The position numbers and the translations under genes were made by a program. A DNA stretch of 34,805 bases from an uncultured Anaeromyxobacter sp. (lineage in GTDB: Bacteria; Myxococcota; Myxococcia; Myxococcales; Anaeromyxobacteraceae): the NCBI GenBank assembly GCA_903904005.1, contig CAIVAR010000032.1, positions 1-34,805 of the forward strand. Direction: 5' to 3'. Shown piece by piece: positions 7,046-28,053 of the stretch. A model generated the notes under the pieces. It saw only the letters and a program-made list of their open reading frames with translations. It was not told the origin of the DNA and made no database searches. Position 1 is the stretch's first letter; each line of letters opens with the position of its first letter.

Positions 7046-10000
7046 CTACCGCAGTCCAGTCGTGATGATCAGTTGCTCGGGCTCGTCGTAGATGACGACC
7101 GGCACGCGGCTTGGCGAATCCGGATCGCCGTTCCAGGCCTTGCGGACCCGCACGATGCCGTCGCGCCCCGCGTTGAATGTGATCGAGCCGCTGGCCGGGA
7201 TCTCGACCTGCACGCGCCGCATCTCGCCCGCCGAGAATCGGTTGCCGGGTCCGAAGGTCTGCCCGGACGGGAAGACGTGCACCGGCTTGCTCGAGCGGTT
7301 GGTGATCTCGGCCATCACGCGGGCCGGTGCGGACGCCTTGGCCGGGGGCGCCTGGGGCGGCGGAGCAGGGGAGCCGGCCAGGGGGAGTCCCTCGACCCGG
7401 GTGTGACCGCTGCCCTGCGAGCCGCCGTTCTGGGACCAGGAGGCCGGATTCGAGTCGACCACCGTGTACGTGCCCGCAGGCAGATCGACGTCGGGAGAGA
7501 CGATCCAGTTGGCGTTGGGAACGCCACCCTGGCCGGCCGTGCCTCGCGCCTGCCAGGGGCCGTAGGTGCGGCCACCCGGTCCCTGCAGCGCGATCGTGCC
7601 CGGGGACGTGGCGCCACGACCATCGTTCCAGTGGTAGGTGCGGATCATCGTGATGCGGTGGGAGGAACCGAGCGTGAAGGCCGTGGGCCGGCTGGGCTTG
7701 TTGTAGACACCGCCCGTGTTGCAGTTGTCGAACACCGGGCCGGCCGCGGCCGCGGCAGGTACCGGTACCGGTACCGGTACCGGTACCGGTGCCGGGGCCG
7801 GGGCCGGGGCCGCACCGGTCGCCTCGGGGGCTCCGACCATCTTCCACTCCGCGTCGCCACCACCCCTCCAGCCCGAGCCATCCGGTGGGCGAGCCCCACC
7901 GAGCGGCCACAGGCGGAAGCGCACGATCTGGAAGACGGTCGGCGACTTGAACTTCAGCTCGACCTCCATGTTGTTGCCGCAGCAGTATCCGGCGACGTCG
8001 GGCAGCACGCCACGCCAGGTGTTGCCCTCGGCGCGCTTCACGGTGCCGCTGCCGTAGTAGGCGCCGCGGCTCTTCGGGGGCTCGGGTTCCCCCCCTTGCC
8101 ACTGGTCGACCTTCATCGACGTGCCCGACAGCGAGGACAGGCGGAAGGTCTGCGAGCCATTCACCCGGTAGGCGCCGACCTGGGGCGTGACGGGTCCGGA
8201 ACCCGCTGGCGCCTGGGCCTGCTGCGCCTGGTTCATCCGCGCCACGATGAGCTCGCGCCAGCGCTTGAACTGCGCGTTCTCGGGCTGCAGGCCGATGGCT
8301 TCGTCGCAGTTCCCCAGGGCCGGCGTCAGGACGTGCAACTGGGCGTAGTAGGGCTCCCGGTTCTCGGCTGCGTCGCGGACGTGCCCGACGATCGCCTCCA
8401 GCCGACGCTGCCGCTCGAACGCGTCGTTGCGCAGCTTCGCCGCCTCCCGGTACTCGGGCTCGGAGCCGTTGAACGTGATCTGCGAGTTCGCGAAGGCCTC
8501 CTCGTAGGTCTTCAGGGCGCCGGCGTAGTCGTGCTGCGCCACCTTGTCGGCGGCAACCCGCATGAGGCCGATCTGCTGGTCCTTCTGCGCCGCCCACTTG
8601 CGCGCCCACTCCTCCTGCTGCGAGAGCTCCTTGTCGGCGTAGGCGTCGAGGCGGGTCGACTGACGCCAGGCCTGTGCGATCTCGAGCGCGCGACGGAACT
8701 CCTTCTGCGCGCTGGCCTGGCGCACCTCGTCGAGCTTCGCTTGGACCGTCTTGCCGTAGCCCTGCTGGACCTCGGCCACGTTCACCGCGATCTCGACGAC
8801 CGTGCTCGCGGTGGCCGTGCGCCCTTGCCCGTCGGTCACGACGACCGTCACCGTCTGTCGACCGGCGCGCGCCGACGCGATGCGCGCCTGCGCCCCCTGC
8901 CCGTCGGCGCCCTGCCACGCGTAGCGATAGGGCGGCTTGCCCGACGAGGCCTCGGCGCTGAAGGTGACCGGCTGGCCGGCGTCAACGCGGGCCCCGGAGG
9001 CCGTCAGGCGGACGACCGGATCCACCGGTGCCGGTGGCTTGTCCGAGACCTCGATGACGTTCACGGCGACGTCGGCGGTTCCCAGGAGCACGCCCTCGCC
9101 GTCGCGCGCCTCGACACGGGCCTCGATGCTCCCCGGACCGCTGCGGGAGACCGTGGGCGTCTGCGACACGTTGCTCGAGATCGTGCTGCCCTCGTTGACG
9201 GTCCAGTTCCAGCGCACGACCGCCGGCGCGGCTCCCTGCACCTCGGCCCGCAGCGAGACCCGCTCGTGCGTCGCGTACTGCCCCTTGGGTACCGGGACGA
9301 GGCCGACCTTGGCCGGGTCCCACATCATCGGGCGGTTCCCGGGCTCGACCACCTTGGCGCTCACGGTCCAGCCCAGGCCGGTGTAGGTCGCGGAGACCTC
9401 GGCGATCGTGTCACCGTGATGCGGCACCCGCGCGATGGTCTTGAGCACGAGGGGGCGGCCATCCTTCACCGTGAAGGCGATCTCCCGGGCGTTGGGGGTG
9501 AGCTCGGAGCGGTTGGAGGTGCCCGGCTCCTGCCAGCGGAAGTCGACGATCGGGTCGGGGATGGGCGGATCGCTGTTCACGCGCAGGCGAACCTCCTGGC
9601 CCAGCCGTCCCTGCCCCTCCGGCGGCGTGAACTGGACGCTGAACCTCGGCGCCACGACCTGCACGGTCTGCTGCTCGCACTCGCCCACCGTGTGGAACAC
9701 GCCCTCGATCTCCTTCTGAATCTCGCACCAGAGCTTGACCGGCCCCATGCGGCTGTAGATCACCTTCGTGCGGCCGTCGGCGCTCGTGGGCGGCGCGAAG
9801 GTCACCACCGGATCGGACTGCCAGACGACCCGCTTCGGCGCCGAGCCCTTGGCGGCCGCCGGAGCCGGCGCAGGCGGCGACGCAGCGGGCGGCGGCCCGG
9901 AGGGCGGGATCGCGGTTGGCAGGACCACCGCCTTCTGGTTCGCGGTGGACACGCTCTTCGTGATCGTGACCGGGCCGCAGTCGTCGAAGGGGGTGCGCCG

Positions 10001-13000
10001 CCTGGAGGGGTCGGCACAGTCGTCCACGGGCGGAGGGGGTGCCGGCGTCGGGTCCGGAGGCGGCGGATCCTGGCCGGGCAAGGACAGCGTCGCCTGGTTG
10101 CCGTAATAGACCCGGGCCTCGACCCCCTGCATGCGCACCTTCTCCGGCGCCACGCGCAGCGTGGCCTGGCCTTTTCCGGTGCGACCGTCGGCATCGGTGG
10201 CGCCCACGGTCACGGTCCACTCGCCCGCCCACTGCGGCTGGACGGCGGCGCGGGCGCCGGTGGCTCCCGTGGACCAGGAGAACGCATGCGGCGCTCGCCC
10301 GCCCTGCGCCCTCGCGTTCAGCGTGACGGACGTCCCGAAGGGCACGGCGCCGGTGGGTGCGTCGATGACCACCTTGAAGTCGGCCGGGGCGTCGGGCTTG
10401 GGGACGGGAGGCGTCGTGGGCGGCGGCGGCACCGGCGGCTTGACCACTCCACCGGCCGGCTTCAGGCGCACGGTCAACGTGGGGGCCTTGTCGAGGGCCC
10501 GCCCCAGCAGGACATCCCGCACATCGTCCTCGTAGCCCGGGGCCTTCACGGTCAGGCGGTAGCGCGCGCTCGGCACGCCGAAGACCATCGGGTTTCCGGC
10601 CGCCTGGGCCGGCTTCCCGACCCCCTCGTTGGGACGCAGGTCGCCGGTGGCCCCGTTCACGCCCTTCTTTGGGTCGGTCGCGTCGACCACCGCGACGGTG
10701 AGTTGCACCGGAGCGAGCTTCCTCAGGCTGTTGCGGTAGTCGTCGAGCTCGGCCTTTCGTCGGGCGGTGTGGAACACCGCGCGGTCCATCAGGGCCGGGT
10801 CGGGGCGGGAGGAGCCCGCATCGCGGAAGGGGCGAATCCACAGGTCGTGCGTGAACACCCGCTCGACGACGGGCAGATCGTCGGCATCGAGATCCGCCTT
10901 CGGCAGGAACTCCCGCTTGATCGCCAGCACCGCGTCGGCGCTGGCCTTGCGGGAGGCCGCGGTTTGCTGGGCCCAGGCCGAGGCGGCCTTGGTGTCGGCG
11001 TCCGGTCGGCCGACCAGGAAGAGGGTACCGGTCAGGTAGCGCTGGTTGCCGTCGCGCGCGCCAGCCGCGGGCAGGGAGGCGGCGAGGTCGTCGCGGGTCT
11101 TCAGCACCCCGCGGTAGGCGTCCAGGTACTTCTTGACCACCTGGGCGGCACGCAGGGTCTCGCTCTCCTTGGGTGCCTGGCCGAGGGCATTGCGCTTCGC
11201 GTCCCAGAGCCAGCCGATGAGCTGCTTCAGGTTGTTGGTGTCGACGTCGGCGTCGAGCGAGCGCAGAACCTGCGGCTCGATCTCGAGCGAGGCCGCGGCC
11301 TGCCTCAATTCCTGGAAGAGTTCGGGCAGCATGCCCGAGCCCAGGGCCTGCTCGGCCTGCTTGCGGGCCTCCAGCCGGTCGACGAGCTCGGTGAGGAAGG
11401 CGAGCTTGACCTCCTGCCAGCGCAAGGCGCGCTGCTGGCCGTAGCGCTCCATCAGGCGCGGGCCGACCGCCGGGTTGCTGGCCATCTCGTCGATGAGCGC
11501 GATGACCGGGTCCGCCGCCTCGAGGTTGCGCGCCAGGATGGCGTCCTGGGCCTCCCAGTCGGTCAACCCCGCCGCAGCGCTCCGGAAGGCGGCCATGTCG
11601 ATGCCGCCCCCGTCCCTCCGGGGGGTCTTCAGGCGCCGGTTCAGGTCGGCGATCTCGTCCTGACGCCGCTTCACGAACTCCGACAGGTCGACCCGCTTGC
11701 CCGTCCGCGGATGCTTCACGCTGACGAGCCGGTACACGCCGACCTTGGTCGTGGCCGTGGTCTCGACCTCGACGAGCTCGAACTTCGCGCCGTCGTAGGT
11801 GGTGTCGATGAAGAGCGACAGCTGCTCGCTCCAGTACAACGAGTACCCCGCCGAGTAGGCGGCCTTGGCCATGCCGTACGCGGCCTCGGGCAGGCCGGCG
11901 GGCGGGAAGATCGTCGTGACGACATCCCAGCCGGCCCGGAGCGTGTTCCCCATCATCGCGTTCTCGACCGCCGATCCGCCGGGGATGCGCCGGCGGAAGA
12001 GCTCGGTCGCGAAGCCCTCCCAGCCCTGCTGCGACCAGGCATCCCGGTAGGCCAGCATCTCGTCGGCGAGCCCGGTCACCGCCATGAGCTTCATGCCCTG
12101 CCGCGCGACCGCCACGGACTGCAGCTTCGTGTTCACCACCTGGTTGGCGGTCCGGATCCCCCGGGCCAGCTTCTCCTTCATCACGTTCAGGCGCTGCGTC
12201 TTCGCCACCGAGCTGCCCTTCACCAGGCTCTTGACCTCGGTCTCGAACTCGGCGAACTCGCCGTCGCCCCGGAGCTCGGAGAGGAGCGCGCCGTCGATGG
12301 TGTCGAGGATCTGGTTGGTTCCGTCGACGCCCTTCATCGTCTTCTCGGCGGCGCGGGCCGCCCGATCCATCACGTAGGCCTTGACCATCTGCAGCCGGGT
12401 CGGGTCGGGGTGGGCGCGCTGCGCGGCGAGCAGCTCCTCGACGAACTTCTTGTCCTTGAGGTCGTCCGCGCTCAGCGCCTTCACGCCGAAGCCCTTGCTC
12501 AACGACTGCAGCAGGCTTCGCACCTTGGCATTGTTGGTCCGGACGGACGTCGGGACGGGCATCGAGGTGCCGATGGCCTTCGTCTCGGCCTCGACCATGT
12601 CGATGAGGTCGACCATGTCCTGCCGCAGGACCTCGGCGTCCGCGTCGACCGGCTCTCCGCGGCGCTGCCGCTCGGCCAGTTCCCCCATCCTCCGGTCCAT
12701 CTCCTCGGTGCGAAGGCGGGAGCCTCGCTCCGCCGAATCCCACATCTCCCGACGAGCCTGGTCGTGGAAGGCCTTCACCGCAGCAGGGCTCACGGTGAGG
12801 CGCAGACGCTTGGATCCCGCGTCCCAGACCGTGGTCGGCGTGGCGCCCAGCGCCGAGGCGATCTCCCGGATCATCGCGTCGCGGCTCGCCTGGCTCTGCG
12901 GCTTGGCGTTGGCCAGCTCGGTGATGGTCCGGGCGAAGGCCGCCAGCTTGGGCGGCTTGTCGGGCGCTCCGATGCTCTCGACCTCCGCGGTGTAGCTGCG

Positions 13001-14287
13001 GTCGAGGTACTTCGCCGCCTTCACGATCGAGGTGGAGGCGTCGAAGATTCCCGACTTCGCGATGTCGTGGTCGAAGTGGCGGACCATCTCCATCGACAGG
13101 CCGGGCTGGGCCTGCCGCACCGGCTTGATGGTCTCCACGCCACGCGAATCGAGCAGGTCGCGCTCCTCGGAAAGGATGCGGGTCACTTCCTCGAAGGAGG
13201 CCGACCTCCGCGTGCCGCTGACCAGGTCGACGACCTCGTTGACCTTCATGTTCTTCTCGGCGTAGGCCATGCCGTGGCGACCGATGTAGACGTCGAGGCC
13301 GGCCTTGCCGTGCTGCGTGCTGACGGCATCCAGCGCCTTCTGGTCCAGGCCCGCCCGGCCTCGGATGATCTCCAGGTAGGCCTCCCGGAGCTCCTTCGAC
13401 AGCGCCTGGTCGTTGCAGACGAAGCTGAAGTCGATGTCGCCCGGAAACGTCAGCGCACGCGAGTCCTGCGTCGCCCACTTGCCGACGTGCGCGACGATCA
13501 GCTTCACGCCCTCGGCCGGCACCCGGCCCGAGAAGCGCTTCAGCGTCTCGTCGATGGCCGCCAGCGTCTGCTCCTTGCGCCACACGAGCAGGCGCTGCTC
13601 GACCAGCGTCCCGCCCTCGGGATAGGTCGCACCCAGGACCTTGCGCGCCAGGCCGGGCTCGGCGGCCTGGACCAGCGTCGACCGGACCTGGATCACCTCC
13701 GTCATCGAGCCCTTCATGGCGCCCAGCTCGGCGTAGAACTGGGACGCCGACCGGGTCCCGGTGCCCACCTCGTGGAGCATCGTTGCGATGCGGGCCTGGC
13801 GCTCGTTCATGCCCGCCTTGCGCAGCGAGTCGGTCACGTCGGCGAGTCCGGACCGGTTCAGCGGTGGGTTCCCGGGCCCGGGGTCCCCCGGTGGCGGCGC
13901 GTCGGCCGACCGCCTGGCGGTGAAGGGGGAGCTCTTCCCGGTCTTCGAGTCCTGGAAGGTCCCCTGGACGACCACGTTCCCGCCCGAGAGGTCCGGCCTG
14001 CCCTTCCAGACCTGCTTGTGGCTCTCGGAGGTGATCCCGCTCCGGATCAGGAAGAACTCGTCGACGCTGACACTGCCGGTGAATCGCCCCCTGTCGGAGG
14101 CCGTCTTTCCGACGAATTCGCCCTGGATGTTCCCGTCGGGCGTGGCCGTGTCGATGCGGAACTTCCCGCCCGCCTTCCCCTGCCCCTTCCATTCCCACTC
14201 TCCGGAGACCAGCGTCTGGAGATTGACCGGGTCCGCCGCCATCGCCGCGGCGGGGAGCAGGAACGCGAGCAGGAGCGCCCGCATCAC
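7046..14287 (-). CDS. Giant secreted multidomain protein with PKD/Ig-like repeats
   Basis: 2413 residues. There is a signal peptide (MMRALLLAFLLPAAAMA), then a beta-rich N-terminal domain (about 20-126). A long mostly helical region (about 145-1200) contains HVGKWATQDSRALTFPGDID (about 267-286) and LDVYI (331-335), which together look like a nucleotidyltransferase-type Asp triad. A carboxypeptidase-regulatory-like beta domain and Pro-rich linker (about 1210-1300) follow. PKD/Ig-like domains lie at about 1305-1380, 1545-1620, 1665-1740 and 1750-1832. Next are a helical repeat region resembling TPR (about 1835-2015), a Pro-Val linker (about 2165-2180) and a terminal beta domain (about 2184-2300) containing ITMIRTYHWNDGRG and VDLPAGTYTVVDS. 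A C-terminal beta domain ends the chain. The start ATG overlaps the stop of the upstream lipoprotein gene (ATGA), implying translational coupling. It probably acts as a surface or periplasmic scaffold; the true activity is unknown. Confidence 0.88.
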   Translation of the reverse strand: MMRALLLAFLLPAAAMAADPVNLQTLVSGEWEWKGQGKAGGKFRIDTATPDGNIQGEFVGKTASDRGRFTGSVSVDEFFLIRSGITSESHKQVWKGRPDLSGGNVVVQGTFQDSKTGKSSPFTARRSADAPPPGDPGPGNPPLNRSGLADVTDSLRKAGMNERQARIATMLHEVGTGTRSASQFYAELGAMKGSMTEVIQVRSTLVQAAEPGLARKVLGATYPEGGTLVEQRLLVWRKEQTLAAIDETLKRFSGRVPAEGVKLIVAHVGKWATQDSRALTFPGDIDFSFVCNDQALSKELREAYLEIIRGRAGLDQKALDAVSTQHGKAGLDVYIGRHGMAYAEKNMKVNEVVDLVSGTRRSASFEEVTRILSEERDLLDSRGVETIKPVRQAQPGLSMEMVRHFDHDIAKSGIFDASTSIVKAAKYLDRSYTAEVESIGAPDKPPKLAAFARTITELANAKPQSQASRDAMIREIASALGATPTTVWDAGSKRLRLTVSPAAVKAFHDQARREMWDSAERGSRLRTEEMDRRMGELAERQRRGEPVDADAEVLRQDMVDLIDMVEAETKAIGTSMPVPTSVRTNNAKVRSLLQSLSKGFGVKALSADDLKDKKFVEELLAAQRAHPDPTRLQMVKAYVMDRAARAAEKTMKGVDGTNQILDTIDGALLSELRGDGEFAEFETEVKSLVKGSSVAKTQRLNVMKEKLARGIRTANQVVNTKLQSVAVARQGMKLMAVTGLADEMLAYRDAWSQQGWEGFATELFRRRIPGGSAVENAMMGNTLRAGWDVVTTIFPPAGLPEAAYGMAKAAYSAGYSLYWSEQLSLFIDTTYDGAKFELVEVETTATTKVGVYRLVSVKHPRTGKRVDLSEFVKRRQDEIADLNRRLKTPRRDGGGIDMAAFRSAAAGLTDWEAQDAILARNLEAADPVIALIDEMASNPAVGPRLMERYGQQRALRWQEVKLAFLTELVDRLEARKQAEQALGSGMLPELFQELRQAAASLEIEPQVLRSLDADVDTNNLKQLIGWLWDAKRNALGQAPKESETLRAAQVVKKYLDAYRGVLKTRDDLAASLPAAGARDGNQRYLTGTLFLVGRPDADTKAASAWAQQTAASRKASADAVLAIKREFLPKADLDADDLPVVERVFTHDLWIRPFRDAGSSRPDPALMDRAVFHTARRKAELDDYRNSLRKLAPVQLTVAVVDATDPKKGVNGATGDLRPNEGVGKPAQAAGNPMVFGVPSARYRLTVKAPGYEDDVRDVLLGRALDKAPTLTVRLKPAGGVVKPPVPPPPTTPPVPKPDAPADFKVVIDAPTGAVPFGTSVTLNARAQGGRAPHAFSWSTGATGARAAVQPQWAGEWTVTVGATDADGRTGKGQATLRVAPEKVRMQGVEARVYYGNQATLSLPGQDPPPPDPTPAPPPPVDDCADPSRRRTPFDDCGPVTITKSVSTANQKAVVLPTAIPPSGPPPAASPPAPAPAAAKGSAPKRVVWQSDPVVTFAPPTSADGRTKVIYSRMGPVKLWCEIQKEIEGVFHTVGECEQQTVQVVAPRFSVQFTPPEGQGRLGQEVRLRVNSDPPIPDPIVDFRWQEPGTSNRSELTPNAREIAFTVKDGRPLVLKTIARVPHHGDTIAEVSATYTGLGWTVSAKVVEPGNRPMMWDPAKVGLVPVPKGQYATHERVSLRAEVQGAAPAVVRWNWTVNEGSTISSNVSQTPTVSRSGPGSIEARVEARDGEGVLLGTADVAVNVIEVSDKPPAPVDPVVRLTASGARVDAGQPVTFSAEASSGKPPYRYAWQGADGQGAQARIASARAGRQTVTVVVTDGQGRTATASTVVEIAVNVAEVQQGYGKTVQAKLDEVRQASAQKEFRRALEIAQAWRQSTRLDAYADKELSQQEEWARKWAAQKDQQIGLMRVAADKVAQHDYAGALKTYEEAFANSQITFNGSEPEYREAAKLRNDAFERQRRLEAIVGHVRDAAENREPYYAQLHVLTPALGNCDEAIGLQPENAQFKRWRELIVARMNQAQQAQAPAGSGPVTPQVGAYRVNGSQTFRLSSLSGTSMKVDQWQGGEPEPPKSRGAYYGSGTVKRAEGNTWRGVLPDVAGYCCGNNMEVELKFKSPTVFQIVRFRLWPLGGARPPDGSGWRGGGDAEWKMVGAPEATGAAPAPAPAPVPVPVPVPVPAAAAAGPVFDNCNTGGVYNKPSRPTAFTLGSSHRITMIRTYHWNDGRGATSPGTIALQGPGGRTYGPWQARGTAGQGGVPNANWIVSPDVDLPAGTYTVVDSNPASWSQNGGSQGSGHTRVEGLPLAGSPAPPPQAPPAKASAPARVMAEITNRSSKPVHVFPSGQTFGPGNRFSAGEMRRVQVEIPASGSITFNAGRDGIVRVRKAWNGDPDSPSRVPVVIYDEPEQLIITTGLR
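7758..7811 (-). repeat. GGTACC hexamer array (coding)
   Basis: Five exact tandem copies of the self-complementary hexamer GGTACC (7758-7787) are followed by GGTGCC and three GGGGCC units. In the gene they encode a Pro-Val then Pro-Ala linker. The repeat length keeps frame, so slippage would only change linker length. Confidence 0.95.
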
Positions 14288-15507
14288 AGAACCGTCCGGA
14301 CCTGGAGGTAGGTTCGCTTGCCCGCCTTCACGACCACGTCCTTCAGGGTCTCCTTGGACACGACCCGGCCGGCGGAATCCATGTGGACGACCTCGATCTG
14401 CTGCTTCCCGGCGGGCACGTGGGCGTGTCCGATCCGGATCTGGGAGGCGATGGTGTTCCAGGCACGCGTATCGGTCTCGCCGGCCCCGGCGTCCCCGCCG
14501 TTCAGGTACCGGACCGTGGCCCGTGCGAGGGCCCGTTGCCGGAGCGAACCGGACGGATCCTCGAGGAGCGCCTTCGCGAGGGACGACATGTCCATTGCCA
14601 GCTGCACGGGAGACTCCTTGCCCTTCACGACGAGGCGGGAGGCGACGATCCGGTGCGGGTCCTGCGCGAACGTCGGGCGGGCGTAGGAGATGGTGTCGGT
14701 CCGCCTGCCCGCGGCCGAGGCGGCTGCCACCTGTGCCCAGACCGGCTCTCCGCCCACCGCCTGCACGGCGGCCACGGCCTCGGCCCAGGAGGCCTGGCGC
14801 GCTTGCGCTTCCACGCGCGGGGCGGGGCCGTTGTAGTGGATCAGGACGATCTCTCCCTCCCCCTTCTTCATGGGCGTGGCGAGGGCCTTCGGATCCACCT
14901 GCTGCGCCTTCGCGGGATCCTTGGCGGCCACGGACCTGGCCTGCTTCGCCGCTGCAGCGGCGTCGGCCGTCAGTCCGGCGTCCTCGTTCACGAGTTGCTG
15001 GAGGACGGCCACGAGGAGTTCTCCCTGCATCGGCATGGCGGCGGTGCCCCCCTGGAGCGCCTTCAGGTAGGTCCCGGCCTTGCGGGCCTCGACCACGGCG
15101 ACCTCGGGCTGGCTCAGGAACAGGTCGTTGACCGCGCGGAGGAGGTGGATGAGGAGTCGCTCGTAGGCGGGGCCGGAGTACTCCAGGGAGGCCGGCGTCG
15201 AACCCGCCGGGGCGCCCGCCACCTTCGTCCGCGGGATGACCTCCTTCATCCTCGCCTCGGCCTGCGAGAGCGTCGCGTTGCTCTCGGAGTACTGGCTCGC
15301 GAAGTGGAGGGACGCGCCCTTGTCGAGGAGGACCAGCACCTGACCCGACCTGGCGTACTCGGCGTCCATGTCCCTCTCGAGCCCCTCGAGTGGGGACGCC
15401 GCGTCACCGCTCGCGACGGTGTCGCTCCGGTCCTTCTTCTGGTCGGCGGAGGAGGTCGCGCACGCCGTGGAGAGGACCATCAGGACGACGAGTGAGCGCT
15501 TCACCAT
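14284..15507 (-). CDS. COG3014-like outer-membrane lipoprotein
   Basis: 407 residues from the ATG at 15507, chosen for the GGAGG 6 nt upstream and the lipoprotein signal MVKRSLVVLMVLSTAC (lipobox STAC, Cys16). The first half contains helical TPR-like segments. YSGPAYERLLIHLLRAVNDL followed by VVEARKAGTYL matches the signature of the COG3014 family (pYeG.pyErvl.h..kAlnyL...d...A.VEaRra). The C-terminal half is a beta-rich domain of about 170 residues with SQIRIGHAHVPAGKQQIEVV. COG3014 proteins are uncharacterised and often sit with lipoproteins of the LpoB/CsgG type. The stop codon overlaps the ATG of the giant PKD protein (ATGA), so the two are translationally coupled. They may form one envelope complex (inference). 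Confidence 0.82.
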   Translation of the reverse strand: MVKRSLVVLMVLSTACATSSADQKKDRSDTVASGDAASPLEGLERDMDAEYARSGQVLVLLDKGASLHFASQYSESNATLSQAEARMKEVIPRTKVAGAPAGSTPASLEYSGPAYERLLIHLLRAVNDLFLSQPEVAVVEARKAGTYLKALQGGTAAMPMQGELLVAVLQQLVNEDAGLTADAAAAAKQARSVAAKDPAKAQQVDPKALATPMKKGEGEIVLIHYNGPAPRVEAQARQASWAEAVAAVQAVGGEPVWAQVAAASAAGRRTDTISYARPTFAQDPHRIVASRLVVKGKESPVQLAMDMSSLAKALLEDPSGSLRQRALARATVRYLNGGDAGAGETDTRAWNTIASQIRIGHAHVPAGKQQIEVVHMDSAGRVVSKETLKDVVVKAGKRTYLQVRTVL

Positions 15508-21919: not shown

Positions 21920-23143
21920 TCAGGGATCGGCGGGAGGCTTCCCTTCTCTGCAGCGGCGGACATGGTCGCCCAGGAGCTGGTCCAGGTGGCCGAAATGGTC
22001 TCGAAGCCACCTGTCCAGGAAGCCCGTCAGGGCGAGGACGAAGGCGGGTGAGTCCCCCTCCGACCCCCAGTGCACCGTCACCGATTCGAGGGTCCTCCGC
22101 AACCCCTCATGATCCTCGACCTGTTCGGCGATGCCGGGGAAGTTCACCTCGCGCATGAGTGCCTCCTCGGCGTCGAAGTGTCTCCGCATGTACCCCGCCA
22201 GGAAGTCGAACAGGGCTTCCACTTCGCCACTGGCCAGGCCTTCCCGGAGGCTCGTGTTGAGGGCGCTGACTGCTTCGAGTAGGGCAACGTGCTGGTCGTC
22301 GATCTCGGGGACGCCGATCGCGAGCAACGTGTCCATCGCGCGCCTGCCCCTCCGAACCTTCTTCCCAGGCGGCTTCACGGTGACGTCCTGCGGCTGGGCG
22401 CGTGCTCGCGACCCGGACGGACGGTATCGATCTGGAATGACCACGAGCCCGCGCGCAGGTTGCCCTTCGGGTGCCGCCTGAAGATGAAGCCACCCCGAAT
22501 CCGCGACGGTGGCGAGGTCGAGCAGGGACAGTTGCCCTTGTCTTCTGGCGTCCGCGATCAGCTGGGCCGCCGCAGGGATGCTGAGGCCCAGAGGCTGGAT
22601 ATCCGCAGCGACTGCGCGGGTGTGCTCCGAGGACCACGAACCCTCCCGAACCGTACAGACATCGCACTCCGCGGAGCGGTAGCCCACCTTCACGAGGACG
22701 TCCCCGCCGAGAATCTCTCGCACGGGCTCGAAGACGTCCTTCGCGAAGCGGCGTGCCTGCTCCTTCAGTCGGGGGGCGTCCGTCCAGGTCTGCCGATTCG
22801 CCTCCTTCCAGCGTGGCTGCGGAACTTCCAGGAAGTCCAGCACCGCCAGGTTCGGGCTGAGCCGTTCTTCCTCCAGCACCTGCCCGCTCGCACCTTCGAG
22901 GGGGAGCTCGGCAGCGGGAATCCGGTATAGCTTCGCGAGGGCTCCGAGCAATGCTCTCCCCGGGAGTTCCCGGCCGTGCTCGAGCCGATGGACGATGCCT
23001 TCGGGGATTCCGACCAGGTGCGCGACCTGCCTGGTGCTGAGGCCGAGCCCGAGCCGAGCGGCACGCGCCCTTCGAGCGAACGACGTCAGGGTCTGGGAAG
23101 GGAGGGTTGGCATCCGGTCACCGGTGTCGGCCGGACCTTCCAC
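21920..23143 (-). CDS. XRE-type HTH / M15-like peptidase / hemerythrin fusion protein
   Basis: 407 residues from a GTG at 23143, with AGGGG upstream; an ATG at 23113 is an alternative start. There are three domains. (1) An XRE/Cro-type helix-turn-helix, about 20-75 (LSTRQVAHLVGIPEGIVHRL). (2) A peptidase M15A/D-Ala-D-Ala carboxypeptidase-like domain, about 120-225 (VGYRSAE; SSEHTRAVAADIQPLG; DSGWLHLQ), with zinc ligands H174, D181 and H220 all in place. (3) A bacteriohemerythrin domain, about 272-395, with ligands H285, H322, E326, H345, H383 and D388; the seventh position, normally His, is Gln341. No signal peptide is present, so it is predicted cytoplasmic. It starts 11 nt after the GAF-PAS kinase stop, so it is co-transcribed with two sensor kinases. 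An internal ATG at 22336, with GGAGG 12 nt upstream, could produce the hemerythrin domain alone. Its role may be oxygen- or redox-linked regulation (inference). Confidence 0.83.
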   Translation of the reverse strand: MEGPADTGDRMPTLPSQTLTSFARRARAARLGLGLSTRQVAHLVGIPEGIVHRLEHGRELPGRALLGALAKLYRIPAAELPLEGASGQVLEEERLSPNLAVLDFLEVPQPRWKEANRQTWTDAPRLKEQARRFAKDVFEPVREILGGDVLVKVGYRSAECDVCTVREGSWSSEHTRAVAADIQPLGLSIPAAAQLIADARRQGQLSLLDLATVADSGWLHLQAAPEGQPARGLVVIPDRYRPSGSRARAQPQDVTVKPPGKKVRRGRRAMDTLLAIGVPEIDDQHVALLEAVSALNTSLREGLASGEVEALFDFLAGYMRRHFDAEEALMREVNFPGIAEQVEDHEGLRRTLESVTVHWGSEGDSPAFVLALTGFLDRWLRDHFGHLDQLLGDHVRRCREGKPPADP

Positions 23144-23154
23144 ATTTTAGACCC

Positions 23155-25620
23155 CTACGGGCTCCGGCTGGTCCGTGGACACACTTCTTCACCTGCCAGG
23201 TCCCCCGGCACGGGCTCCGCAGACGCGGCCGGCAGTTCCAGCCGGAACGTCGATCCCTTCCCGACCAGGCTCTCCACGGTGAGCGCCCCACCGTGTGCCG
23301 TCACGATGGCGTGGCAGATGGCGAGGCCGAGCCCCGTGCCCTTGCCCTCGACCCGGGTCGTGAAGAACGGGTCGAAGACGTGCTCCATGATCTCGGGCGT
23401 CATGCCGGCGCCGTCGTCGGTGACCTCGAGCCGGACCCTTCCCTCGGTCCCGGGACCGGTCCGGATCGTGATCTCCCCGCGCCGCCCCTCGGGGATGGCG
23501 TGCGCGGCGTTCGTCACCAGATTCACGACGACCTGCTCCAGTTGCCCCGCCGAGGCCAGCACGTCGGGCGCCGCCGAGGACTCCATGCGGGTGATCGCGA
23601 CGTCTCCCACCGACACGCGCAACCACCGCATCGCCGACTTCACGACGTCGGAGAGTTGCACCAGGCCGAGCTTCGAATCCGGGCGCCCGAAGGTGGACAG
23701 GTCTTTCACGATCTGTGCGACCTTGTTCACGTCGGCCTCGGCGCGGCCGAGCATCTCCATCACCTCGTCCGCGAAGCGGGCCAGGACTTCGCGGTCGAGC
23801 GGGTCGCCTCGGCGAAGGAGTTCGGCGAACTTCTGGACCTCCTGGAACGCTATCGACCGGCATGCCATCTCTCCGGCGAGGGGATTCCGGATCTCGTGGG
23901 CCACCCCCGCGACCAGCGTCCCCATGGCCGCAAGGCGTGCCGAGAAGGCGAGTTGCGCCTGGAGATTCAGGCGAGCTTCCTCTGCCACCTTCCGGTCCGT
24001 CACGTCCTGGATCGTGCCCACCAGTCGAACGGGCGTTCCGTCCGCGCCCCGTTCGAGCTCGCCGATACCGTGTACCCACTTGACCCGCTGGGTGGCCTGA
24101 TCGACCACCCGATACTCGTTGTCGAACCGCGAGCCGCCCGACAGCAGGTCCTCCAGGTACCGCCTCATGGTCGGGCGGTCGTCGGGATGGACGATGCGGA
24201 GCCAGTCGGCGCCCGTGCGCGGGAAGCCCGGGTCGATCCCGAAGATTTCGTTCAGCGCCGTCGAGCTGCTCCAGTGGTCCTTCCGGACGTCGAACACGTA
24301 GTTCCCGAGCCTGGCGATGCCCTGGCTCATCCGCAGCCAGCCCTCGCTCTCCCGGAGGTCGTCCATCGCCTGATGGCGTTCGCTGATGTCCTGGCAGAAA
24401 GCCACGTACCTGTCTTCCGCGATCATCACGGCCCCCAGGGCGACCCAGAAGTGGCTCCCGTCCTTCCTCCGCAGACGGAAGTCCTGGTCCAGCCGTCCCG
24501 TCGCGACGAGCGCGCCGAACTGGGCCAGCGCCGCGGGCCTGTCGACCTCGTCCACGAGGTCGGAGATGTTCATGCGCCGAAGCGTGGGACCGTCGACGCC
24601 GATCATCTCCAAAGCCGCTGGATTGCAATCCTGGTAGTTCCCTCGGCCGTCCACCACGAAGATTCCGAGAGGTGCAGCATCGACGTATGTCTGGAACCGC
24701 TCCTCGCTCGCCTTCAGGGCTCGGCCCGTGGCGACGAGATCCACCTCCTGGCGCTCCCGGGCTCCGCGTTGCCGGATGGCACCCACGCCGAACGCCACGT
24801 CGTCGGTGAGCCTCTTGAGGTAGGCAAGCTCATCGCCTGAGAACGCGGCGACATCGCCCGAATACATGACGATGGCGCCAAGGACCGTGCCCTCCAGGAT
24901 GATCGGGAGCGAGGTCACGGAACGATAACCGCGCTTGAGCGCCTCTTCCCTCCAGGGCACCATCAAGGGATCGGTGGAGAAGATCTGTCCCACCACCATT
25001 CTCTTCTCCCGGATGGAAGTTCCCGTCGGGCCTCTTCCCCGGGGTTCGTCCGCCCAGACGATGTCCACGAGCCCGAGGTAGCCGTCCTCGTGCCCGGCAT
25101 GGGCCACCGGACGAACCGTCCTCCGCTCGTCCCGCTCCGCGAGCCCAACCCAGCACATGGGGTAACCGCCCTCGTCCACGATGACCTTGCAGATGTCGGC
25201 GTAGATCTCCTCCTCGGTGGTTTCCCGCAGGATCGCCTGGTTGCAGCGGGTGGTCATGGCGAGTGTTCTGCGAGCCGCGCTCTCTTGCGACCGGATGCGC
25301 CGCAGGACCTCGAGGGTTACTCCGATGGCCACGCCGCTCACCACGAACAAGGTGAGCTCGACTTGATCCCGGTGTCTCGGAACGAGGAACGTCCTCACGG
25401 GTTCCGTCTGGAAGTAGAGCTCCTCCAGGAGGCCCACCGCCGTCGCCACGGCTGCGGGACCGAGGCCGCCCAGGGCTCCTGCAATGGCCACGGCCAGGAG
25501 CAGGAGATCAGGCTCGGGCTCCCCCGTGTTCCCGAGGAGGGCGTTGCGGATGAGGACCGCGACGCCGATCAGGATCGGAGCCGCGACATAAGCCCTTACC
25601 TGATGCGAGCGGGGCTTCAT
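23155..25620 (-). CDS. Membrane GAF-PAS-PAS sensor histidine kinase
   Basis: 821 residues from the ATG at 25620, chosen because GAAGG lies just upstream. An ATG 12 nt earlier, in frame, has no ribosome binding site. Three or four N-terminal transmembrane helices (about 10-30, 38-65, 88-106) resemble a DUF4118/MASE-like anchor. A GAF domain follows (about 120-285; YPMCWVGLAE, YRSVTSLPI, LGAIVMYS). Then come two PAS domains (about 305-420 and 425-560), HisKA with VAHEIRNPL (phospho-acceptor His about 585), and HATPase with NLVTNAAHA, DDGAGM and GKGTGLGL. All catalytic boxes are intact. It lacks a receiver domain, and no response regulator lies nearby. It is the middle gene of the signalling operon, 33 nt after the HTH-PAS kinase stop. 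Confidence 0.9.
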   Translation of the reverse strand: MKPRSHQVRAYVAAPILIGVAVLIRNALLGNTGEPEPDLLLLAVAIAGALGGLGPAAVATAVGLLEELYFQTEPVRTFLVPRHRDQVELTLFVVSGVAIGVTLEVLRRIRSQESAARRTLAMTTRCNQAILRETTEEEIYADICKVIVDEGGYPMCWVGLAERDERRTVRPVAHAGHEDGYLGLVDIVWADEPRGRGPTGTSIREKRMVVGQIFSTDPLMVPWREEALKRGYRSVTSLPIILEGTVLGAIVMYSGDVAAFSGDELAYLKRLTDDVAFGVGAIRQRGARERQEVDLVATGRALKASEERFQTYVDAAPLGIFVVDGRGNYQDCNPAALEMIGVDGPTLRRMNISDLVDEVDRPAALAQFGALVATGRLDQDFRLRRKDGSHFWVALGAVMIAEDRYVAFCQDISERHQAMDDLRESEGWLRMSQGIARLGNYVFDVRKDHWSSSTALNEIFGIDPGFPRTGADWLRIVHPDDRPTMRRYLEDLLSGGSRFDNEYRVVDQATQRVKWVHGIGELERGADGTPVRLVGTIQDVTDRKVAEEARLNLQAQLAFSARLAAMGTLVAGVAHEIRNPLAGEMACRSIAFQEVQKFAELLRRGDPLDREVLARFADEVMEMLGRAEADVNKVAQIVKDLSTFGRPDSKLGLVQLSDVVKSAMRWLRVSVGDVAITRMESSAAPDVLASAGQLEQVVVNLVTNAAHAIPEGRRGEITIRTGPGTEGRVRLEVTDDGAGMTPEIMEHVFDPFFTTRVEGKGTGLGLAICHAIVTAHGGALTVESLVGKGSTFRLELPAASAEPVPGDLAGEEVCPRTSRSP

Positions 25621-25653
25621 CTCGCCTTCCATGTGGCGCTACTCGAGAGGAAC

Positions 25654-28053
25654 TTACAAGCCGGTGGCGACGGCGGTCCCTTCCTCCGAAGGAGCGGCAG
25701 GCAACTCCACCCGGAACGTCGAGCCCTTGCCGACCTCGCTCTCGACGGTGATGGTCCCGCCGTGGGCAGTGACGATGGCGTGGCTGACGGGGAGTCCGAG
25801 CCCGGTGCCTTCCCCGGCGGGGCGCGTCGTGAAGAACGGGTCGAAGACCCGCTCGATCACATCCGGGGCCATGCCCACCCCGCTGTCGATCACCTCGATG
25901 CGGGCCATACCCGGGTCTCCCGGACCCAGCCGAACGACGACCTCACCCTTCCTGTCGCGGGGCGTGGCCTTGGCGGCGTTCGTGATCAGATTCACGAGCA
26001 CCTGTCCGATCTGGCCGAACGACGCCATGACGTCGGGCGCCCCGCCGTCCTCCACCTGGAGGGTCACCGCCGCCCCCACCGACCCGGGCAGCCAGCGCCT
26101 GGCCTGATCGACGATCTCGATGATCGGAACCCGCGCTCGCTGCGGGTTGGGGCGTGCGAAGAGGGCGAGGTCCTTGACGATCTGCGCGATGCGCTGCCCC
26201 CCGTGCTGGCTGTCCTGGAGGGAGTCCACGACCTTGTCGAGGAGTCCGGCCAGTTCGTCCCGCCCCTCGGTGGCACCCTCCGTGACAAGGCGGCGCGCAT
26301 CCTCGGCGAGTTCCAGTGCGATCCCCCCACCCGCGAGGATGCCGGAGAGCGGGTTGTTGATCTCGTGGGCGACGCCCGCCACCAGCGTCCCCATGGCGGC
26401 AAGGCGTGACGCCACCGCGAGCTGATCCTCCATCTTGCGGATCTCGGTGACGTTCCTGGCGACACCCACGATGCCGATGACGCGCCCCTCGGCGTCTCGC
26501 AAGGGAGCCTTCGACGAGAGGTACGTCCCGAGTCCGGTCGGTCCGGGGACCTTCTCCTCGAAGGTCCTGGGCACCCCCGACTCCAGGATCTCGAGGTCGT
26601 TGAGGACCAGCGCCCGTGCCGGCTGCAGGCTCCCGAAGATCTCCGCATCCGTCTTGCCCAGCACCTCCTCCGACGGCTTTCCGACGACCTGGAGCACCGC
26701 CGCGTTCACGAACGTCCATCTCCCCTCCAGGTCCTTCGCGAAGATGGAGTCGGGGCTGGAGTTGGCGATGGCGAGCAGGAGGGCCCTGCCGTTCCTGATG
26801 GCCTCCTCGGCCTGCTTCCGTTCGGTGATGTCGTGGATGATGGAGTGCAGCAGGTCCTTCCCCTTGAACTTGACCTTGTTGCTGTAGACCTCCACGTCCC
26901 GGGCGGAGCCGTCGGCCCGGCGGTGACGGAACTCGAAGTGCGTTCGCTTCTGGCTCCTGGCCAACTCCATCTCCTCCGCGATCTTCTCCGCCGGAAGCGT
27001 GTTGAGGTCCTGGACGCGCATCTGCCGCAGACGATCCACGGGCCACCCGTAGAAGCTCGCAGCCGCGGGATTGGCATCGATGATCCTGCCGGTGTCCGGG
27101 TCGACGACGAGCTTGACGGCCGAGTGGTTCTCGAACAGTCCCCTGAAGAATGTCTCGCTGTCGTGGAGTTCCCGTTCGATCCGCTTCCGCTCGGAGATGT
27201 CGGTCAGCGCGACTCGCGCCTCGGACTCCTGGTCGCTCCCGTGGATGAACCAGCAGGTCACCTGGGCGTCGAACACCGTTCCGTCGCCTCTGCGGATCCG
27301 GAGGTCGCCGACCTGCTTCTCCTCCCCTTGCCGGGCACGGGAGAAGAGGCCCTGCCAGGCCAAAGCGTGCCCGGGGGCGACGAGGAACGCGAAGCGATTC
27401 CCCCGGAGCTGCCCCCGGGAGATGCCGAGAAGCGTGGCGGCGGTGAGGTTCGCCCCCGTGATGGATCCAGCCGCATCGAGGGTGACGTAGCCGTCCGGCG
27501 CGAACTCGAACAGGTCGACGTAACGGCTCCCGGCCTCCTCGGCCGCGTCCCGGAGGCGCCGGAGTTCCTCATTCTGCATCTCCAGCTCGACCCCTCGAAC
27601 CTCGAGTTCGTGCAGGAGCGCCGACCGCGCCGCCCCGGCCATCGACGTGCCAGCTCGGGGGGCACCCTTGTCGACCTGGGCCTCCGCAGCTCCCCGAAAC
27701 TTCTCGAGATCGTTGCTGCCGGGGTCCGCCATCCCGCCGTGGGGACTCCGCTTGGCGCCGAGCGGGTCCTCCGGACGGTGGTCCGGATCGAGGAGGTCGT
27801 GGACCCGGACCCCGTAGACCTTGGCCAGCGTCGAGAGCATCTCGATGGTCGGGAAGCGGCTGCCGCGCTCCACCCTGGAGAGGCCACCCGGGTCGATCCC
27901 GGTGCGGACCTTCACGTCCGGCCCCGTGAGGCCCGACGCGATCCGTACCTCACGCAGGCGCCGGCCCAGCGCGATCGCGTCGGGGTCGGGAGCGTCCTCG
28001 CTGGTGGATCCCGGCACGATGCCAGGCGGGTGTTCGCTCACGGTCGGCGCCAT
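25654..28053 (-). CDS. XRE-type HTH fused to a triple-PAS histidine kinase
   Basis: 799 residues. An XRE/Cro-type HTH occupies about 27-90 (LGRRLREVRIASGLTGPDV; GGLSRVERGSRFPTIEMLST). A linker and a coiled coil follow (about 145-175). Then come PAS1 (about 176-288), PAS2 (about 300-413) and PAS3 (about 423-538). HisKA carries VAHEINNPL (His563), and the HATPase has NLITNAAKA, DSGVGM and GEGTGLGL. There is no transmembrane segment, so it should be a cytoplasmic kinase that can itself bind DNA. The ATG is directly abutted by AGGAG with no spacer; a GTG 12 nt inside is a possible alternative start. It is the first signalling gene, 58 nt after the glycosyltransferase stop. One-chain HTH-plus-kinase proteins are unusual, because transmitters normally signal to separate regulators. 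Confidence 0.88.
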   Translation of the reverse strand: MAPTVSEHPPGIVPGSTSEDAPDPDAIALGRRLREVRIASGLTGPDVKVRTGIDPGGLSRVERGSRFPTIEMLSTLAKVYGVRVHDLLDPDHRPEDPLGAKRSPHGGMADPGSNDLEKFRGAAEAQVDKGAPRAGTSMAGAARSALLHELEVRGVELEMQNEELRRLRDAAEEAGSRYVDLFEFAPDGYVTLDAAGSITGANLTAATLLGISRGQLRGNRFAFLVAPGHALAWQGLFSRARQGEEKQVGDLRIRRGDGTVFDAQVTCWFIHGSDQESEARVALTDISERKRIERELHDSETFFRGLFENHSAVKLVVDPDTGRIIDANPAAASFYGWPVDRLRQMRVQDLNTLPAEKIAEEMELARSQKRTHFEFRHRRADGSARDVEVYSNKVKFKGKDLLHSIIHDITERKQAEEAIRNGRALLLAIANSSPDSIFAKDLEGRWTFVNAAVLQVVGKPSEEVLGKTDAEIFGSLQPARALVLNDLEILESGVPRTFEEKVPGPTGLGTYLSSKAPLRDAEGRVIGIVGVARNVTEIRKMEDQLAVASRLAAMGTLVAGVAHEINNPLSGILAGGGIALELAEDARRLVTEGATEGRDELAGLLDKVVDSLQDSQHGGQRIAQIVKDLALFARPNPQRARVPIIEIVDQARRWLPGSVGAAVTLQVEDGGAPDVMASFGQIGQVLVNLITNAAKATPRDRKGEVVVRLGPGDPGMARIEVIDSGVGMAPDVIERVFDPFFTTRPAGEGTGLGLPVSHAIVTAHGGTITVESEVGKGSTFRVELPAAPSEEGTAVATGL

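Follow-up and report, generated by a model that had tools for sequence, protein, structure and literature searches.

XRE regulators that are fused with or paired to peptidases are familiar from ImmA/IrrE (M78) and from CI and LexA (S24), in which, as in the gene described here, an HTH is linked to a peptidase-type domain. The Peptidase_M15_3 phage endolysins (PHROG 894) and the Zn DD-peptidase of Streptomyces albus G (1lbu) have the fold and the zinc triad found here; the endolysins are annotated as lytic, carry a conserved Glu in nearly all cases and have no HTH. Hemerythrins are also known to be coupled to signaling proteins (PMC10101095), a recognized pattern seen in chimeric hemerythrin sensors such as DcrH, Vibrio cholerae Bhr-DGC and PG_0686. 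A survey of bacterial hemerythrins found 26% of them in chimeric proteins; among prokaryotic hemerythrin sequences, about one in five departs from the canonical motif (PMC2556348), PG_0686 being a studied example of such a non-canonical protein (PMC10101095).

Here we describe a gene that encodes an XRE-type HTH, an M15 domain and a hemerythrin domain in a single protein, within a window of 34,805 nucleotides (the whole stretch of DNA analyzed) from an uncultured Anaeromyxobacter sp. The host genome (G000; 98% complete, 186 contigs) was compared with three congeners (G001, G002 and G003). The protein differs from ImmA/IrrE and CI/LexA in its peptidase fold and in the loss of the conserved Glu, from the phage endolysins in being cytoplasmic as judged by sequence, and from the chimeric hemerythrin sensors in its XRE HTH and M15 partner, a combination with hemerythrin for which we found no paper in the literature searched. 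We suggest, with a probability of roughly one half, that it arose as a lineage-specific stop-loss fusion of an XRE-M15 regulator gene and a bacteriohemerythrin gene, and that it acts as a one-component regulator with a non-catalytic M15 domain. The features, with residues numbered from the GTG at 23143, are as follows.

21920..23143 (-), whole fused gene, 407 aa, GTG start
22904..23080 (-), XRE-type HTH (HTH_31), residues 22-80, Pfam E 6.6e-08
22439..22888 (-), M15 domain (Peptidase_M15_3, phage-endolysin type), residues 86-235, by Pfam, PHROG 894 and model
22622..22624 (-), H174, zinc ligand 1, invariant alignment column
22601..22603 (-), D181, zinc ligand 2, invariant alignment column
22502..22504 (-), A214, at the Glu position of the D-x-x-I/V-x-E motif, by alignments of relatives
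22484..22486 (-), H220, zinc ligand 3, invariant alignment column
22337..22438 (-), basic linker, residues 236-269, weak codon score
22334..22336 (-), Met270, aligned with the start codon of the congeners' free-standing hemerythrins
21944..22336 (-), bacteriohemerythrin-type domain, residues 270-400, by Pfam and NCBIfam
22121..22123 (-), Q341, at an iron-ligand His position, by a 49-row alignment of relatives
23155..25632 (-), upstream kinase, DUF4118-GAF-PAS-PAS-HisKA-HATPase, by Pfam domains
25654..28053 (-), the kinase before that, XRE HTH-PAS-PAS-PAS-HisKA-HATPase, by Pfam domains

The single uninterrupted frame of the original prediction is open over all 407 codons with no internal stop. 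AGGGG lies 8 bases 5' of the GTG, and an alternative ATG start is found at 23113 (residue 11). A domain search recovered the three predicted domains in the predicted order, each above its Pfam cut-off: HTH_31 at residues 22-80 (33.2 bits against 27), Peptidase_M15_3 at residues 133-204 (E 9.9e-06, 26.1 bits against 23.2) and Hemerythrin at residues 278-390 (E 1.4e-10, 42.1 bits against 25.3). These matches far exceed chance. The HTH_3 score of 23.2, against a gathering score of 23, also places the protein within the XRE/Cro-CI HTH profile, and M78 (PF06114, ImmA/IrrE) gave no Pfam match at E ≤ 1. The two sensor kinases said to precede the gene are indeed directly upstream on the same strand, with 21 bases between the stop of the first and the start of the second and 11 bases between the stop of the second and the GTG, and the three genes form an apparent operon. 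No signal peptide or membrane helix is obvious, the highest 19-residue Kyte-Doolittle mean being 1.22. With its XRE HTH at the front, no obvious export signal and an apparent operon with kinases, the protein is plausibly a one-component DNA-binding regulator. A role in anti-phage defense was considered and rejected, as the PADLOC matches were solely at the level of the HTH (RmrA, HTH_VI).

AlphaFold gave a poor model of the whole protein (pLDDT 49.7, pTM 0.31), which was set aside, and a pLDDT of 82.5 for residues 85-262, modeled from 16 sequences. The latter model matched 1lbu at Z 12.0 over 124 aligned residues (2.8 Å), the rows that followed in the structure search standing at Z 6.5 and being mostly hedgehog domains, and a profile search also matched 1lbu (E 1.8e-09). 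The domain further matches the PHROG 894 endolysin (E 8.4e-06), and phage tblastn places phage endolysins among its best sequence relatives. Alignment confirms the intact H-D-H zinc site: H174, D181 and H220, in the arrangement H-x6-D ... H, are unchanged in every aligned M15 homolog. The Glu of the D-x-x-I/V-x-E (DQxIxE) motif that precedes W-x-H, which we presume from the M15 and hedgehog folds to be the general base, is replaced by Ala214; this column holds Glu in both congeners, in the prophage paralog and in all aligned phage homologs but one (Tyr). Because the conserved Glu is missing, peptidase activity, and with it the proposed cleavage of a D-amino-acid peptide, is poorly supported, and we file the domain as an M15-fold domain rather than an active peptidase. 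Its closest relative in the genome is an M15 endolysin-type gene in a prophage-like region (L155, G000:C183:24000-40707) that also holds tail fiber, glycosyltransferase and integrase genes. Residues 160-174 (window 22622-22666, minus strand) include an insert of two residues and, directly ahead of H174, a C-x-x-C motif (CDVC); the XRE-M15 homolog of G001 has an insert of the same length but lacks these cysteines.

The hemerythrin domain is recognized by NCBIfam hemeryth_dom (TIGR02481; E 1.1e-21, 77.2 against a cut-off of 51.75) as well as by Pfam, and falls below the cut-off of the NF033749 subfamily model (68.4 bits against 84). The domain as predicted therefore stands, but its diiron site is incomplete. 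Six of the seven ligands are kept, the positions being H285, H322, E326, Q341, H345, H383 and D388, which amounts to four His, one Gln and two carboxylates where the motif H...HxxxE...HxxxH...HxxxxD expects five His. The column of Q341 holds His in 45 of 49 alignment rows and Gln in three, two of which are the fused protein itself. With one His ligand missing, there is little to support the predicted oxygen binding at a canonical diiron site. The original prediction, in which DNA binding is coupled to peptidase activity and to oxygen binding by the hemerythrin, could draw on the complete zinc triad, on the six kept ligands and on the precedent of hemerythrin-coupled signaling proteins (PMC10101095), but the conserved Glu and a His ligand are both gone and the architecture has no match in any relative searched, and we regard it as highly improbable.

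The whole-protein search of 99 relatives found no second three-part protein, and an XRE-M15 profile run over 195 genomes of the phylum found the three-part architecture nowhere else. For the three-part protein this is the outcome that the original prediction had named as refuting it. What the relatives share is the XRE-M15 half, common to two congeners: whole-length profile matches among the 195 genomes were confined to the host, G001 and G003. The G001 protein (L010:1477-2169) has 230 aa and ends just past M15, and that of G003 (L012:1450-2208) has 252 aa; neither has a hemerythrin. Both resemble the fusion in placing an XRE HTH before an M15 domain with the zinc triad (35-41% identity), and differ from it in retaining the Glu and in ending after M15. 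A low-sensitivity scan of 84,980 GTDB species by two short peptide patterns recovered XRE-M15 only in these congeners. IMG/VR yielded no relatives with either the whole protein or the G001 M15 part as query, plasmids gave hemerythrin matches only and no fusion, and phage records matched the M15 part only, with no place reaching 80% coverage of the XRE-M15 query. Among other M15_3 proteins of the phylum, several show by eye an N terminus that resembles a Tat or lipoprotein signal, and a scan of ten detected no HTH. As the three-part gene occurs in no second genome, there is no sign that selection keeps the fusion; and because it is found nowhere else and both of its metal sites are one key residue short, the gene is more likely to encode a regulator fused in this single instance, or to be fading, than to encode a functional enzyme and oxygen sensor.

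The junction offers evidence on how the gene arose. The fused hemerythrin is closest to stand-alone genes of G001 and G002 (grouping support 99/98 in the tree), whose start, MLSWDPSLAIGVPEID, aligns with Met270 (MDTLLAIGVPEID in the fused protein). Between M15 and Met270, residues 236-269 are basic and of low complexity, with an in-frame codon score of -0.22, a value as low as which occurs in only 0.6% of 1003 equal-size coding windows from the window's genes (the codon statistics being built on six to seven of these). The first half of this spacer scores higher in another frame, which meets a stop 13-14 codons before Met270, and GGAGG stands at 22349-22353, 12 bases 5' of Met270. Since the spacer thus has non-coding codon statistics, and since the parts exist as separate genes in congeners, one may ask whether two genes, one for an XRE-M15 protein and one for a bacteriohemerythrin, have been run together in the contig alone because the 34-codon spacer was wrongly assembled or its consensus miscalled, or whether the hemerythrin is translated alone from Met270. 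We think this unlikely. The halves share one frame and are read through without a frameshift, though the open spacer is by itself weak evidence, a 34-codon stretch at 70% GC having about an even chance of being open. In addition, divergence and the loss of a ligand set the fused hemerythrin apart, as would be expected of a copy under changed constraint: the G001 and G002 proteins are 76% identical to each other, and either is 43-47% identical to the fused domain (47% for G001).

A gene in decay, formed by stop loss and now losing its function, would also account for some of these observations, and we consider it a minority possibility, somewhat doubtful rather than far-fetched. Both substitutions, Ala for Glu in the M15 site and Gln for His in the hemerythrin, would be expected under it, as would the long branch of the fused hemerythrin (0.93 against 0.075 and 0.20 for the G001 and G002 genes) and the reduced codon bias of the gene (GC3 0.79 against 0.84-0.93 for its window neighbors and 0.87-0.93 for congener homologs). 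Against it, no stop has appeared in the 407 codons, the zinc triad is intact, six of seven diiron ligands persist and the hemerythrin part has a good coding score (0.43). The low coding signal of the spacer together with the GC3 would fit a spacer recently turned linker, relaxed selection or a consensus error.

We place a real lineage-specific fusion first because it needs no frameshift, its halves lie in one frame and its hemerythrin has evolved unlike the free-standing relatives. The non-coding look of the linker counts against it, as does the absence of shared synteny among the two-part genes: these share none with each other or with the fused locus. The G003 kinase that is 84% identical to a window kinase sits at a contig end, and the DUF3574 neighbor, 87% identical in G002, has a beta-lactamase-like gene upstream there instead.

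By this fusion, loss of a stop would have joined the gene of a cytoplasmic XRE-M15_3 regulator to a bacteriohemerythrin gene, the start of the latter becoming Met270. The product may bind DNA as a one-component regulator, probably as a dimer that represses either its own kinase operon or genes of the cell envelope. Its M15 domain would hold zinc and might also bind, but not cleave, a muropeptide in the cytoplasm or a ligand resembling D-Ala-D-Ala, while the hemerythrin tail, probably a recent addition, could serve as a non-canonical iron/redox module or as a helical bundle aiding oligomerization. In a more elaborate version, a functional cytoplasmic regulator would use a domesticated, Glu-less endolysin domain to detect muropeptides inside the cell, or products of phage lysis, and redox state or iron would control its response through a four-His hemerythrin; this seems to us quite improbable.

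The three-part protein is a singleton, ordinary in its parts and unusual in their combination, and defines no new class. The more lasting novelty is the small two-part XRE-M15 family, apparently cytoplasmic and present in three of the four genomes compared from one Anaeromyxobacteraceae genus. If its members sense cell-wall fragments or lysin substrates, the family would be a case of a phage part turned into a peptidoglycan-responsive regulator. In the XRE-M15 proteins of the two congeners the HTH shares 51-56% identity with that of the XRE-PAS kinases in the genus, and so one HTH type precedes a kinase in some proteins and a lysin-type domain in others; the HTH of the fusion is 33-46% identical to the HTHs of these same two groups. 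The G001 XRE-M15 gene is divergent from a histidine kinase gene (L010:111-1640, minus strand), much as the window gene adjoins kinases, and the G003 copy (neighbor L012:161-1425, minus strand) has genes for a sigma factor and a zinc-finger anti-sigma-like protein nearby.

Soluble histidine kinases with an N-terminal XRE HTH, three PAS domains, HisKA and HATPase occur in the window (25654-28053, minus strand), elsewhere in the same genome (G000:C46, L008) and in G002 (C238, L044). With at least three near copies in the genus, whose HTHs are 86-88% identical, they may form a DNA-binding kinase family worth a separate survey. The second kinase of the window has several relatives in G003 (C15, C119 and C103; 76-84% identical), one of them ending where its contig ends, a pattern suggestive of recent duplication among kinases in that genome, which also breaks assemblies. 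Elsewhere in the window, two open frames of 2400 codons overlap on opposite strands (7046-14287, minus; 7073-14311, plus), and the one domain match in this pair (PKD) falls in the minus frame.
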